Positions 14,447-20,268 of a stretch of DNA of 42,913 bases are shown here, piece by piece. The notes under the pieces are model-generated. The model saw only the letters and a program-made list of their open reading frames with translations, searched no databases and was not told the DNA's origin. Every line of letters begins with the position of its first letter. Positions within the stretch are counted from its first letter, which is position 1. The translations under genes were made by a program, and so were the position numbers. The stretch covers positions 1-42,913 of the forward strand of contig JAFGRT010000072.1 of NCBI GenBank assembly GCA_016935015.1, in the 5' to 3' direction. The DNA comes from Acidobacteriota bacterium (GTDB taxonomy: Bacteria; Acidobacteriota; JAAYUB01).

Positions 14447-15313
14447 TCAGAAGATAAGCAGATAGGTCATACCAAAACTGACGTAGTCGTCATCTTCTTC
14501 GAACCGGGGCGAACGGATATCCTCGTCGGCCAGCCTGACGTACTGAATATGGCCGGAGATAGTCCCTTTGGGCAGCTTGATCGGCAGGGAAAGACGCACG
14601 GAGAAATCGGTCAGCCCCCAGGCGGCGTCGTCGGCCGGCATGCCGCCGCCCGAGCCGCCGCCGTTCACGCCGCCATCGCCCGGGCCATTTTTGGCGCGGG
14701 GATCGCCCAAAACCCCGCCACCGGAGCCGCCGGCCGCCGGCGGGCCCGGCTCACGGTCGGGGTTGCCGCGAAAATAGCCGCGCTTGAAGTCGCTGGAGCC
14801 GAAGCCGAGGCCGGCCGAAATCTCCAGTCCGTCGGTGATGTCCGGCGCGCCCAGGCCGATGGTGTGGGATCCGCCCAGGAGTAAGTAAGTGCCCCTAGTT
14901 TCGGCCACATCCTGGTAAAGGGTGACCATGGGCGACAGGGGCGCATCCACCATGATTCCGGCGAACACCTCGGCGGTGGTATCGAATTCCTGTTGGGAAA
15001 AGACATAGAGGGCCGCGCCGCCCGACAGCAGCACCCGGCCCCACTGACGGTCATAGGAGATGGAGAAATCGCCGCGGTTAAAACGGAAGGCGTCGCCGCC
15101 GTTCTCCTGATCCGTCAGGGGCATGTTGCCCCAGGCGCCTAGGGTGAAGTCGCCCAGCAGTACCGTAACGCCCGGCTGAAAGACCGGACCGTCATCGTTC
15201 TTGAGACCACGCCAGATGTAATTTGACTGGAAGGTGACGTCCAGGGCGGCGTCGGCGGCAGGCATGGCTCCCCACAGGCCCGCCGCCAGCAGGATCAGGA
15301 TCATACATCTCAT
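14447..15313 (-). CDS. Outer-membrane protein with a Gly-rich insertion
   Basis: A 288-residue protein with a signal peptide ending near AADA. The mature start LDVTFQSNYIWRGL resembles the family of periplasmic/outer-membrane proteins that open with SNYxWRG (TIGR02001-like). Strand-rich sequence continues to FGMTYLLIF at the C-terminus, a barrel-type ending. Between about residues 190 and 225 lies a low-complexity stretch rich in Gly, Pro and Asp (for example GGVNGGGSGGGMP), which would sit in a loop. The ATG at 15313 has AGGGG five bases upstream; the GTG six bases earlier is too close to that site. It diverges from the kinase gene at 15507. Confidence 0.8.
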   Translation of the reverse strand: MRCMILILLAAGLWGAMPAADAALDVTFQSNYIWRGLKNDDGPVFQPGVTVLLGDFTLGAWGNMPLTDQENGGDAFRFNRGDFSISYDRQWGRVLLSGGAALYVFSQQEFDTTAEVFAGIMVDAPLSPMVTLYQDVAETRGTYLLLGGSHTIGLGAPDITDGLEISAGLGFGSSDFKRGYFRGNPDREPGPPAAGGSGGGVLGDPRAKNGPGDGGVNGGGSGGGMPADDAAWGLTDFSVRLSLPIKLPKGTISGHIQYVRLADEDIRSPRFEEDDDYVSFGMTYLLIF

Positions 15314-15342
15314 GGTCACCCCTGCGTTTTAAGCATTTCGGG

Positions 15343-15506: not shown

Positions 15507-17102
15507 ATGAAGCCACGGCATGCTAGGTTCGTCGAGAAAGGGCTCTATCTTTTTGTACTGGCGGTCAATACCGGGATCGTGCTGCTACTGGTGCTGCAGA
15601 TCCGTAACGAAAAAACCGCCTACATGGAGCTGCGCAGCGAGGACGGCTTCCTGTTTCTGGAAAGTGTCAACCAAAGCCTGCAGGCAGCGCTGACTCGTCT
15701 TGAGCAAGACGCCGGCCGGCTGGAGCTGGAGGCAGCCGAACCCCACCTGTCAGAGGTTTTGACCCCACTGGCCGATTATCAGGACATTGTGTTCATCCAG
15801 GTGGAGTCCCTGGGCGGTCCCTTGTTTGGCACCGAGCCGAATCCCCTGGCGGCCGGGCTGGGCGGGCTAGGGGAGGATCCCCTCCTACAAGAGGCGGTGT
15901 ACGGCGGGGCGCCTTTCACCCGCGAAATCACGTTCCAGGGCGAGGACGTGCTGGAGTGCGTGGCGCCCCTCTACCGCGACAGGGCCTTCGTGGCCCTCTT
16001 GCGCATCGGCCTCAGCCTGGAGTTTGTCGAGTACCTGGAATCGTCGTTCCGAAACATCGTTCTGGTGGCGTTGGGATTCATTCTCCTGCTGGATCTCATT
16101 TTCGTGTATGCCATCCTGATCAGCAAGCGGCTGGGACGGGAAGGAGCGCGATTCCGCGCCATCATGAACGAGATCGGCGACGGCGTCCTTGTCCGCGACC
16201 GGCGCGGCCGCGCGTTCCGCAACAGAAGTCTGGAGGTCCTTTTGGGCAGCGGGGCGGAAAAGCGTTTGCGCAATCTCCCGACGGAGATGGCCCGTATCAG
16301 GCACCATGAACGAACCCTACTGGTGTTGCGGGACTCCCTTCCGGATGCCGATGTTTTTATCGTCAAGGATATCTCCCTGGAGACCATCGCCGAGGAGACC
16401 CGCCAGCGCGAGCGGCGACTCTTTTCCATGGGCTGGCTGTCCAGCACCTTCGCCCACGAAATCCGGAACCCGCTGAATACCGTTTCCATGATTATCCAGC
16501 AGCTGCGTCTCGAATCCACCCTGCCCGAGCAGGAACAGCAGCTATGCGATATCCTGCATGCCGAGATCGGCCGGCTGAACAATACCGTTTCGGAATTTAT
16601 CCAGGTGGCCCGTCAGCCGGCCGTCGAGATGCAGGACGTCGACATGGAGGCCTTTCTCGGGGAGATCCATCGCTTCTACGCGGCCGGCGGCACCGCCCTG
16701 GATCTGGAGATCCTGTGCCCGGCGGACAGTGATCTGATAGTGCGGATGGATGTGGAAAAAATGAAGGGCGTGCTCATCAATTTGGTGGAAAACAGCCGCC
16801 AGGCGCAAGCCCGACATATTCGGATCACCTGCCGCCGGCAGCCGCCTTTCGCCGTTCTCGATGTCAGCGACGACGGTGAGGGCATGAGCCCCCAGGTCCG
16901 CGAGCGGGCGTTCGAATTGTATTTTACCACTCGTCCCGAGGGGAGCGGCCTGGGACTGGCCACGGTCCACCGGCTCGTCGTGGCGCACGGCGGTATGGTG
17001 GACATTGAATCGACCGAAGGGCGGGGAACATCCATCTTTCTTTATCTGCCGCTGAGCAAGGGAGAAACGCCTGATGAAGCATCGGATCCTGGTGGTGGAT
17101 GA
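15507..17102 (+). CDS. Membrane sensor histidine kinase, NtrB/AtoS-like
   Basis: A 531-residue kinase. Transmembrane segments at ~12-31 and ~184-206 flank a ~150-residue periplasmic sensor domain of unknown ligand. A PAS-like segment follows (~212-290, FRAIMNEIGDGVLVRDRRG). The dimerisation/phospho-acceptor helix carries FAHEIRNPLN with His317. The ATP-binding domain shows the N-box NLVENSRQ (Asn429 region), DDGEGMS and GSGLGLA (479-485), so all catalytic parts are intact. On phosphorylation it should pass the phosphate to Asp53 of the response regulator, whose gene overlaps its 3' end by 29 bases. The start is the ATG at 15507, shortly before the first transmembrane helix; the ribosome site is weak. 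Confidence 0.95.
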   Translation: MKPRHARFVEKGLYLFVLAVNTGIVLLLVLQIRNEKTAYMELRSEDGFLFLESVNQSLQAALTRLEQDAGRLELEAAEPHLSEVLTPLADYQDIVFIQVESLGGPLFGTEPNPLAAGLGGLGEDPLLQEAVYGGAPFTREITFQGEDVLECVAPLYRDRAFVALLRIGLSLEFVEYLESSFRNIVLVALGFILLLDLIFVYAILISKRLGREGARFRAIMNEIGDGVLVRDRRGRAFRNRSLEVLLGSGAEKRLRNLPTEMARIRHHERTLLVLRDSLPDADVFIVKDISLETIAEETRQRERRLFSMGWLSSTFAHEIRNPLNTVSMIIQQLRLESTLPEQEQQLCDILHAEIGRLNNTVSEFIQVARQPAVEMQDVDMEAFLGEIHRFYAAGGTALDLEILCPADSDLIVRMDVEKMKGVLINLVENSRQAQARHIRITCRRQPPFAVLDVSDDGEGMSPQVRERAFELYFTTRPEGSGLGLATVHRLVVAHGGMVDIESTEGRGTSIFLYLPLSKGETPDEASDPGGG

Positions 17103-18444
17103 CGAACCCAACCAGCGAACAGTCCTTGCGGGCTTCCTGGGGAAACATGGCTACGACATCCTGACCGCGGAGTCGGCGGAAAAGGCGCTGACCGTTTGCA
17201 GCGCCACGCCGCCCGACCTCATCATCTCCGACATGAAAATGACCGGGAAAAGCGGTCGGGAACTGCTGGCCGAGATCCGCCGCGCCGATCCGTTGATCCC
17301 ATTTATCATGATCACCGCCTACGGCAATGTCGACGAAGCCGTCGCCATCATGAAAGAAGGCGCAACGGACTATCTGGGCAAGCCGGTGAATCTCTCCGAA
17401 CTGCTCCTCAAAATTGCCAAAGCCCTCGAGCAAAAGATGCTGCTGGAGGAGAACGAGGAACTGCGGCGGGAACTTGTAGACAGCCAGATGACGGAATCCA
17501 TCCGGACCCGCAACCCCCGCATGCGCGAGGTGCTGAGCATGGCCGCCCGGGCGGCCCGGGCCGACGTGCCCATCCTGATCCTGGGGGAGAGCGGTACCGG
17601 CAAGGAACTGCTGGCCCGCACCATCCATTCCCTCAGTGCCGTCAAGGGCGGCCCGTTCGTGCCGGTGAACTGCGCCTCACTGAATCCGGGGGTCCTGGAG
17701 AGCGAGCTGTTCGGTCACGAACGGGGGGCGTTCACCGGCGCCGCTACTACCCGCAAGGGTCGGTTCGAAATTGCCCAGAACGGCAGTCTGTTTCTGGATG
17801 AAGTAGGCGACATCCCGCCCGAGATCCAGGTGAAACTGCTGCGCGTGCTGCAGGAAAACGAAATCGAGCGGGTGGGGGGCAACCAGTCCATTCCCGTTCG
17901 TTTCCGGCTCATCAGTGCCACCAATCGGGATCTGGAGGAGCTCATCCAGGCCGGGGGGTTCCGTGAAGATCTTTTTTACCGTATCAACGTGGTCTCCCTG
18001 CGGCTGCCGCCTTTGCGCCAGCGGCGCGAGGACATCCCGGTCCTGATGGATCATTTCCTGGGGTACTATAGCGAAAAGTACGGTATTGAGATGAAAGGCT
18101 TTTCCCGGGAAGCCAGGCAGCGCCTGCTGGCGTACGATTATCCCGGCAATATCCGCGAACTCATGAATGTCATCCAGCGCTCGCTGGTCCTGGCCCGGGG
18201 GGATGTCATCCAGACGGTCCAGTTTGATCAGGGGGCGTGTGCCGAGGCGGCGGGGGATACGGTTTCGACCGATGTCCCCGGCGGCACTCTGCCCGAAGCG
18301 GTGGAAAGTCTGGAGAAACGCATGATCATGCAGGCGCTGGAGGAGAACGATCACGTCCAGGTCCGGGCGGCCCGCCAGCTGGGTATCAGTGAGCGCAACA
18401 TTCGCTACAAGATGGAAAAATACGGTCTCAAAGCGGAGGAGTGA
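17074..18444 (+). CDS. NtrC-family sigma-54-dependent response regulator
   Basis: A 456-residue activator. The receiver domain (1-120) has Asp9/Asp10, the phospho-acceptor Asp53 (IISDMKMTG), Thr81 and Lys103. The AAA+ domain (~145-380) has the Walker A box GESGTGKE (171-178), the sigma-54-contacting GAFTGA loop (218-223) and Walker B FLDEVGD (240-246). The C-terminal Fis-type helix-turn-helix is about 430-455 (AARQLGISERNIRYKMEKYG). Everything needed to activate sigma-54 RNA polymerase is present. It overlaps the kinase gene by 29 bases and has GGGAG upstream of its ATG. The best target in view is the sigma-54 promoter 225 bases downstream. Confidence 0.96.
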   Translation: MKHRILVVDDEPNQRTVLAGFLGKHGYDILTAESAEKALTVCSATPPDLIISDMKMTGKSGRELLAEIRRADPLIPFIMITAYGNVDEAVAIMKEGATDYLGKPVNLSELLLKIAKALEQKMLLEENEELRRELVDSQMTESIRTRNPRMREVLSMAARAARADVPILILGESGTGKELLARTIHSLSAVKGGPFVPVNCASLNPGVLESELFGHERGAFTGAATTRKGRFEIAQNGSLFLDEVGDIPPEIQVKLLRVLQENEIERVGGNQSIPVRFRLISATNRDLEELIQAGGFREDLFYRINVVSLRLPPLRQRREDIPVLMDHFLGYYSEKYGIEMKGFSREARQRLLAYDYPGNIRELMNVIQRSLVLARGDVIQTVQFDQGACAEAAGDTVSTDVPGGTLPEAVESLEKRMIMQALEENDHVQVRAARQLGISERNIRYKMEKYGLKAEE

Positions 18445-18668: not shown

Positions 18669-18684
18669 TGGCATGCCACATGCA
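18669..18684 (+). promoter_or_regulatory. Sigma-54 (-24/-12) promoter
   Basis: TGGCATGCCACATGCA matches the consensus TGGCACG-N4-TTGCW at all but two defined positions. It keeps the two invariant dinucleotides, GG (18670-18671) and GC (18682-18683), exactly ten bases apart. Expected transcription start is ~18695, about 30 bases before the next start codon. It sits directly downstream of an NtrC-family activator gene. Confidence 0.78.
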
Positions 18685-18726
18685 GGTACCGGTTCATGAA
18701 GAGATTATTTTAAGGAGGATTCGTAC

Positions 18727-19647
18727 ATGAAACACCTGATGATGATCCTGAGCATGCTTTTGTTGACGTGCAGCCTGGCCGCGGCCCAGCAGGGCGGCGG
18801 TCGCGGCAACGGGGACGGAACCGGTAACGGTGAGTGCGACGGTTCCGGTTACGGGGAGGATCACGGCCGGAATGGCGGCCAGGGCGAAAACGGCGGCCCC
18901 CACGGTTCGGGTTATGACCTGAGTGCCGTGATCACTGTGACGGGCGAGATCGTCGACATGGACTTCTGTGAAGACGACGGCGTCCGCCGGCAGAAAGGCA
19001 ATGCCTCTTTTTACCTGCGCACCGAGGCCAACGATCTCTATCTCGTGAATGTGGCCCCGGCCTGGTTCATGGAAAACCAGGAATTCCCGTTGGCCGTAGG
19101 CGATGTGGTCACAGTGACGGGCGCCCTGACGCAGGGTCAGGAAGAGTGTCAGCTGGACGAGGAAAACGTCTTCGTCATTCTCGCCGCGGAAATTATCAAC
19201 GGCGAATTGGCACTGGTGCTGCGCGACGAACTGGGCTATCCCGTGTGGCGCGGCACCCGGGGCGCCGACAACGGCCGCAATCCCGGGACGTATATCGGTT
19301 ACGACTATGATCCCGCTGCCGAAACCGTCGTCCAGGGCATCGTCGCCGGGATCGCCGTCGGCTGCACCGAAGAGAACACCTATCCAGGATACCATATCCT
19401 TCTGACACTGGACGACGGCAGCGACCTGCTGGTGGTGCTGGGGCCCTACTGGTACCTGGTCAACCAGGAGATGGATCTCACCGCCGGAACGGACGTCGTG
19501 ATCACGGGCGTGTATGTGACGTTGGATGACGGCACGGAGATTTTCATCGCCCGGCTGGTGGAGTATGACGATACCACCATCGTGCTGCGGGACGAGAACG
19601 GCAGCCCTCTCTGGAAAAGCGTGCGGCGCGGCAACGGGCAGCAGTAA
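18727..19647 (+). CDS. Secreted protein with two copies of an OB-fold-like domain
   Basis: A 306-residue protein with a signal peptide (1-20, LAAAQ). A low-complexity region rich in Gly, Asn and Asp follows (~21-58). Two homologous domains come next: ~60-178 and ~195-303. Each has the order TG-EIV / V-GIVAGI strand, a W[FY] turn (APAWFMENQ, GPYWYLVNQ), a D-VTVTG or DVVITG strand, and a closing LRDELGYPVW or LRDENGSPLW box. Small five-strand barrels of the OB type would fit (inference). Function unknown; possibly metal- or ligand-binding in the periplasm. AAGGAGG precedes the ATG by 7 bases, and a sigma-54 promoter lies upstream, so expression probably depends on the adjacent two-component system. 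Confidence 0.85.
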   Translation: MKHLMMILSMLLLTCSLAAAQQGGGRGNGDGTGNGECDGSGYGEDHGRNGGQGENGGPHGSGYDLSAVITVTGEIVDMDFCEDDGVRRQKGNASFYLRTEANDLYLVNVAPAWFMENQEFPLAVGDVVTVTGALTQGQEECQLDEENVFVILAAEIINGELALVLRDELGYPVWRGTRGADNGRNPGTYIGYDYDPAAETVVQGIVAGIAVGCTEENTYPGYHILLTLDDGSDLLVVLGPYWYLVNQEMDLTAGTDVVITGVYVTLDDGTEIFIARLVEYDDTTIVLRDENGSPLWKSVRRGNGQQ

Positions 19648-19678
19648 TCCAGTGACCGCTTCCTGCTGACAGATTTTC

Positions 19679-19724
19679 GCCGGCTCTCCCCTGAAGGACG
19701 CAGGGGGGGGCCGGCTTCCCCTTT
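19679..19724 (+). terminator. Terminator after the duplicated-domain gene
   Basis: GCCGGC (19679-19684) pairs with GCCGGC (19710-19715), and CCCCTG (19688-19693) with CAGGGG (19701-19706). Intervening TCT/GGG wobbles make a stem of about 15 bp with a 7-base loop. TTCCCCTTT follows, a weak but T-containing tail. Confidence 0.6.
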
Positions 19725-19750
19725 GGACGCTAGGGAATTCCGCCCGGATC

Positions 19751-19759
19751 TGGTATACT
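19751..19759 (+). promoter_or_regulatory. Candidate extended -10 promoter
   Basis: TGGTATACT has the TGN extension and a five-of-six match to TATAAT. It would start transcription near 19766, only ~14 bases before the next start codon. No -35 box is evident at the right spacing. Confidence 0.4.
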
Positions 19760-19779
19760 GAAAAAAAGCGGTGAACGGA

Positions 19780-20268
19780 ATGAAGCCGTACAGAAGCAAT
19801 AAAATCATTCTGTTGATTGGTCTGATGGTGGCGTCGGGCGCGTGGGCACCGGGGGCCGAGGACCAGCGGGTGATCCTGAAGTACGACCAGGATACGGTCC
19901 GGGAAGTGTCCGGCGCCATCCAGGAAATCCGGGCCGCGAACTGGTATGACGGCGATCAGACGAATTACTTGGTGCGTGTCGTGGCGGAGGACCATTACGA
20001 GATATGGGTGGACGCCGGATTGGAAAGCCTTTACGAAGTAGACCTGCAGCCGGGTCAGCGGTTCTGGGCCACCGGGTCACTAGTGGAGCATGGCGACACG
20101 ACCTATCTGCTCGCGTCGAAGGTTGCCGTGGGCGGCGGTCAAAATGTGGAGGTCCGCGGCGACGACGGCGTGCCCATGTGGATCAAGTCCCAGCGGATGA
20201 AAAACAGCCAGATGCGCATGAAACGATTCCATTACCAGCGCGGCCGGCACGGTGGCCGACGCCGCTGA
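19780..20268 (+). CDS. Secreted single-domain paralogue of the preceding protein
   Basis: A 162-residue protein with a signal peptide (~1-26). One domain (~40-135) follows the same plan as those in the neighbouring protein: VSGAIQEI strand, IWVDAGLESLY in place of the W[FY] turn, FWATGSLV strand, and the closing VRGDDGVPMW box matching LRDexGxPxW. The C-terminus is a basic, Met/Arg/His-rich tail (RGRHGGRRR at the end). ATG at 19780 is chosen over an in-frame GTG at 19771; neither has a strong ribosome site. It appears to have its own promoter after the upstream terminator. Role unknown; shared domain and adjacency suggest it works with the preceding protein. Confidence 0.75.
   Translation: MKPYRSNKIILLIGLMVASGAWAPGAEDQRVILKYDQDTVREVSGAIQEIRAANWYDGDQTNYLVRVVAEDHYEIWVDAGLESLYEVDLQPGQRFWATGSLVEHGDTTYLLASKVAVGGGQNVEVRGDDGVPMWIKSQRMKNSQMRMKRFHYQRGRHGGRRR

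Follow-up and report, generated by a model that had tools for sequence, protein, structure and literature searches.

Why does a bacterium of the Acidobacteriota, which is not known to be magnetotactic, encode directly downstream of a two-component system two adjacent, predicted secreted proteins that carry between them three copies of one small domain? The window, that is the whole stretch of DNA analysed, comprises 42,913 nucleotides (contig JAFGRT010000072.1 of assembly GCA_016935015.1), and the features of the locus are collected in Table 1. The original prediction had read the two proteins alone; the two-component system, the sigma-54 promoter, the relation to MamS and MamX and the presence of the module in related bacteria were absent from it, and the main content of the locus is this conserved regulatory module together with a link to a magnetosome domain.

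Table 1. Features of the locus and of related loci (L numbers), with positions in the window or in the named locus
Feature	Position	Strand	Basis or remark
Sensor histidine kinase	15507..17102	+	Pfam HisKA/HATPase_c
NtrC/AtoC-type response regulator: receiver, sigma-54-activating AAA+, Fis-type HTH	17074..18444	+	
Putative sigma-54 (-24/-12) promoter TGGCAT-N5-ATGCA	18669..18684	+	58 nt 5' of ORF1 ATG
ORF1, 306 aa, predicted secreted: acidic linker and two OB domains	18727..19647	+	
ORF1 Gly/Asn/Asp-rich linker, probably disordered	18790..18912	+	pLDDT <50, residues 12-60
OB copy A, box LRDELGYPVW	18913..19257	+	family HMM, AlphaFold2
OB copy B, box LRDENGSPLW	19306..19623	+	family HMM, AlphaFold2, MamS profile
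GC-rich hairpin, 15 bp, without T-run, between ORF1 and ORF2	19679..19715	+	
ORF2, predicted secreted: one OB domain and Arg/Lys-rich C-terminal helix	19780..20268	+	
OB copy C, box VRGDDGVPMW	19882..20190	+	family HMM, AlphaFold2
ORF2 basic C-terminal helix/tail	20191..20265	+	AlphaFold2 helix 133-156
DUF2202/DUF4405 genes with strong putative sigma-54 promoters beside OB or two-component-system genes	L048:6607-7296, L058:6168-6848, L042:10143-11090, L048:5570-6364		

The three boxes of the LRDexGxPxW type were all found in ORF1 and ORF2 as first quoted. The six-frame translation of the window contains the pattern [LVIM]R[DG]xxGxPxW three times, whereas 20 codon-shuffled windows taken together contain it once. 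Alignment scores set against 2000 shuffles support homology of the copies (z=16.6 for A-B, 7.3 for B-C and 3.5 for A-C). The family HMM delimits a domain of about 100 residues, closed by the LRDxxGxPxW box, at ORF1 63-177, ORF1 194-299 and ORF2 35-137, close to the segments first proposed (60-178, 195-303 and 40-135), and the family profile finds only these three copies in the whole 4.75-Mb genome, which is 97% complete. The [AG]PxW[FY] turn and the D-V-TG strand described for both ORF1 copies are real, as are the Gly/Asn/Asp-rich stretch of ORF1 and the basic tail of ORF2, while in ORF2 the GPxW turn is lost and DAGLESLY stands in its place. Gly, Pro, Trp, Arg and Leu account for the near-invariant positions of the domain family; His, Cys and Met are nowhere conserved, reaching at most 31% in any column, so that the OB domain itself has no obvious metal or haem site, and metal or haem binding by the domain was rejected for want of conserved ligands. 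ORF2 counts 162 aa from the ATG at 19780, or 165 aa from an alternative GTG at 19771, and export of both proteins is predicted from signal peptides read by eye. Antisense to both genes runs a 433-codon open frame (18694-19995, minus strand) that has the look of a composition artefact but was enough to mislead a gene caller based on the longest ORF.

AlphaFold2 models built on an alignment of 36 homologues confirm the OB-like barrel that had been suspected. Both copies of ORF1 follow the order strand-strand-strand-helix-strand-strand-short strand, most core residues exceeding pLDDT 90, and ORF2 shows the same barrel strands followed by its basic C-terminal helix; the three segments, which might have turned out to be unrelated folds, thus share one barrel. 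The models have the five strands of an OB barrel with the helix between strands 3 and 4, and the top Foldseek matches are OB proteins (SSB, RPA, Teb1, the LysRS anticodon domain, ModG). We conclude that the three segments are, as modelled, OB barrels; no solved structure was found for any sequence relative.

Does the domain belong to an already characterised family? In Pfam and NCBIfam, ORF1 and ORF2 exceed the cut-off of no model, and the matches below threshold are to OB domains (tRNA_anti-codon) and to the magnetosome proteins MamX and MamS. The MamS model (NF040991) scores 18.5 bits against ORF1 (E=0.0017) for an equivalog cut-off of 200 bits; against copy B alone E is 0.0025, with MamS residues 100-182 aligned to nearly all of the copy. 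MamX (NF040996) matches more weakly, with 20 bits for a cut-off of 400. Across the family the MamS profile matches 14 of 26 and 24 of 33 members, at best with 1.1e-12. MamS and MamX are both predicted OB folds that affect magnetite crystal formation (PMC3905215), and in MamX a "domain of unknown function" stands next to the cytochrome c domains (PMC3971196); MamS is made up largely of the domain that it shares with MamX. Since the MamS match spans nearly the whole domain, the OB domain is, on the evidence of profiles, the same as that of MamS and the one of unknown function in MamX. ORF1 and ORF2 have in common with these proteins a domain homologous by profile to their C-terminal one and a predicted OB fold, but differ from them in scores far below the cut-offs, in the lack of a magnetochrome domain, in the two copies per protein of ORF1 and in their two-component and sigma-54 context. 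Neither protein has a CxxCH motif, and the two magnetochrome domains that characterise MamX are missing. A magnetosome cluster in the window was rejected, the ten neighbours scanned giving no match to any Mam family.

The family is widespread. Besides the 36 domains collected from acidobacterial relatives, a degenerate DNA pattern run over 84,980 species genomes returned 61 loci, nearly all with the OB domain, from Acidobacteriota, Geobacteraceae and other Thermodesulfobacteriota, Myxococcota, Bacteroidota, Balneolota, Planctomycetota, Cyanobacteriota, Elusimicrobiota, Atribacterota, Spirochaetota, a Photobacterium and others. Relatives carry one, two or four OB copies per protein; the protein with four tandem copies (L044:9789-11294) adjoins an NtrC-type regulator and has a sigma-54-like site. 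That the domain is duplicated in one gene and single in the next, as originally predicted, describes the layout correctly, but the domain tree, poorly resolved as it is, lends no support to a single domain having been duplicated on the spot in a simple and recent event: copies A, B and C each fall in different places. In this weakly resolved tree other acidobacterial two-copy proteins have their N- and C-domains for the most part in groups of their own, and copy C goes with the regulator-adjacent single-copy protein of L042, from another family, and with proteins of L049, L059 and L060; the latter three likewise bear Arg/Lys-rich tails, basic tails being common in the single-copy subfamily of ORF2. 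Because copy C groups with these tail-bearing proteins, the two-copy and the tail-bearing single-copy proteins look like long-separated subfamilies rather than a fresh duplicate. The tail-bearing genes of L049, L059 and L060 (three genomes, two genera) adjoin a glmS-like gene, which in L059 and L060 encodes GATase plus SIS domains.

What, then, controls these genes? The kinase has two transmembrane segments flanking an extracytoplasmic sensor region of about 150 residues (transmembrane scan) and an AtoS/ZraS-like core, and the regulator, with Response_reg, Sigma54_activat (6e-68) and HTH_8 domains in Pfam, finds its best NCBIfam match in AtoC; all matches to AtoS, AtoC, ZraS and ZraR stay below their cut-offs. 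ZraPSR has the layout of a kinase, a regulator and a neighbouring gene for a secreted protein. The present locus resembles ZraPSR and AtoSC in its periplasm-sensing kinase, its NtrC-type sigma-54 activator and the adjoining secreted-protein gene, but its exported product is an OB protein and not ZraP. The putative -24/-12 promoter, at a functional distance from ORF1, is weak when taken alone, two-mismatch sites being as frequent in the window as in shuffles, and becomes strong once compared with the relatives. NtrC-type regulators number 11 within 4 kb of OB genes (199 kb) and none in the 157 kb further out, against 0.92 expected from the 22 such genes of the 4.75-Mb genome (P~4e-9). Sigma-54 sites precede 12 of 20 module transcription units, a list hand-picked after a first scan and including the close relatives L043 and L047, versus 3 of 413 background genes (p=7e-16); when all 32 scanned genes are counted, 13 reach a score of 5.7 or more, a proportion that also lies far above the background. 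Among OB genes without a two-component system, 5 of 58 have such sites, and a Pfam tally of their nearest neighbours yields no dominant functional family. The kinase-regulator-OB layout recurs in 11 loci (L042, L048, L053, L056, L058, L062, L077, L109, L120, L122 and L124), and in the flanks examined a kinase-regulator pair is missing beside the majority of the named OB genes. The regulator of L042 is orthologous to that of the window (63% identity) and those of L048 and L077 are not; that every module has the same kinase and regulator by orthology was thus rejected for these two. As judged from these comparisons, regulation of the OB genes by sigma-54 and two-component systems is well supported. 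Between ORF1 and ORF2, the strong hairpin, which was not scored as a terminator, could limit read-through, and ORF2 may therefore not share the transcript of ORF1.

The partners of the OB genes in related modules are suggestive of function. In L042 the order is OB-RR-HK-DUF4405, followed by a divergent small protein and by a gene (L042:11720-12817) whose secreted product joins the OB domain to a ferritin-like DUF2202 domain; L048 reads RR-HK-OB-OB-DUF4405 with a divergent DUF2202 gene, L058 combines DUF2202 with OB-HK-RR, and a DUF4405 gene also adjoins an OB gene in L093. DUF4405 (L042, L048) and DUF2202 (L048, L058) genes have good sigma-54 sites of their own at -25 to -51. Relatives of the ferrosome protein FezC, DUF4405 proteins bind haem b (PMC11334425); DUF2202 has weak similarity to ferritin-like domains. 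Since these genes with sigma-54 promoters stand beside OB and two-component-system genes, DUF4405 and DUF2202 may share a regulon. Both are co-encoded with OB genes in some sigma-54-controlled loci, but they are not homologous to the OB proteins and are absent from the locus of the window, whose genome has no DUF2202 and a DUF4405 gene elsewhere with no visible sigma-54 site. Our search of open-access papers turned up no mention of DUF2202, and the DUF4405 paper that it found treats flavinylation and ferrosomes, not an association with OB proteins. RND efflux pumps (ACR_tran) lie directly beside OB genes in three loci (L062:4645-7809, L063:2245-5403 and L076:4253-7381). Genes for secreted FecR-domain proteins (L120:2743-3501, L122:5093-5812) adjoin two-copy OB genes and NtrC-type systems.

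Taken together, we consider it rather probable that the locus is the regulon of a periplasm-sensing two-component system, in which ORF1 and ORF2 would be sigma-54-induced periplasmic OB proteins of an envelope metal- or redox-stress response, functional analogues of SipA/YgiW from a different family. The kinase would sense a condition on the outer side of the inner membrane and phosphorylate the regulator in a presumed phosphorelay; the regulator would activate sigma-54 polymerase at the putative promoter, and ORF1, possibly also ORF2, would be produced on demand and exported. The OB proteins would then use the conserved GPxW turn and RDxxGxPxW box to bind a ligand or a partner and would contribute to envelope protection, most likely as part of metal or redox (iron) homeostasis. 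SipA/YgiW, likewise a periplasmic OB protein under two-component control and protective against cadmium, H2O2 and antimicrobial peptides (PMC6370654), provides a precedent. As regards ligand and physiological role, we infer the metal or redox reading from the association with DUF4405, DUF2202, RND pumps and MamS/MamX.

Other explanations deserve to be weighed against this stress response. The OB proteins might act in the periplasm on cationic peptides or misfolded envelope proteins, as scavengers or chaperones after the manner of SipA/YgiW, with no special metal or redox link and with the cytochrome and ferritin-like genes as lineage-specific extras. SipA/YgiW is a periplasmic OB protein under two-component control that binds antimicrobial peptides, works with OmpA and is needed for survival with cadmium, H2O2 and antimicrobial peptides (PMC6370654). 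ORF1 is strongly acidic (net charge -32), the OB domain lacks conserved metal ligands, and genes that read in sequence like outer-membrane barrels adjoin OB genes in L057 and L058. In the window itself a barrel-like protein with no Pfam match (14447-15319, minus strand) is encoded divergently from the kinase gene and, by analogy with SipA and OmpA, is a possible candidate partner of the OB proteins. Many members of the OB family are however basic, and scavenging leaves aside the sigma-54 promoters common to the DUF4405 and DUF2202 genes of L042, L048 and L058. Like YgiW, YdeI and SipA, ORF1 and ORF2 are small exported OB proteins near or under a two-component system (E. coli ygiW adjoins qseBC), but the LRDxxGxPxW box is missing there and the class of regulator differs. 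Membership of BOF/YgiW (PF04076) was rejected: there is no Pfam match, hhalign gives a non-significant probability of 7%, and no BOF gene was found in 60 genomes of the phylum. We regard peptide scavenging as unlikely, though it is the foremost of the competing accounts.

CcmE is also a periplasmic OB protein, and an accessory role at the membrane, in electron transfer or cytochrome maturation together with c-type cytochromes or DUF4405, would agree with the DUF4405 neighbours named above and with the place of the domain beside the cytochrome c domains of MamX, as well as with an OB gene followed by CcmH (L124:5549-5938) and another followed by a thioredoxin-like protein (L109:6037-6558). We hold such a role to be improbable: the family, alike in its periplasmic OB fold, is without conserved His or Cys and so without the covalent haem residue of CcmE, and the genome has its own CcmE elsewhere. 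A relationship to CcmE (PF03100) was rejected at an hhalign probability of 0.3%, the likeness of KHDENYMP to LRDENGSP being superficial despite the CcmH neighbour in L124. There is very little to be said, finally, for sigma-54 sites and regulators that lie beside ordinary, constitutively expressed secreted proteins by accident, as the many family members of Geobacter, cyanobacteria and Bacteroidota without an adjacent two-component system might suggest; against it stand the two enrichments, the position of the sites at the usual distance from the start codon and the kinase-regulator-OB layout of the 11 loci.

Returning to the regulated envelope response, the findings indicate that the MamS/MamX domain extends beyond magnetotactic bacteria as a common periplasmic module under the control of signals, which brings it within reach of tractable hosts such as Geomonas and Geobacter. 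They tie this domain to the cytochrome class related to FezC and to a ferritin-like protein, and provide DUF4405 and DUF2202 with a candidate shared regulon. It is tempting to go further and to speculate, though we would not put the chances high, that iron or redox stress outside the cytoplasm is handled by a widespread sigma-54 and two-component envelope module, made up of a MamS-type OB protein, a b-haem cytochrome of the DUF4405 class and a ferritin-like protein with DUF2202, and that the domain of MamS and MamX was recruited from it. If this were true, a previously undescribed and widespread envelope iron/redox-stress module would be the origin of the MamS/MamX domain.
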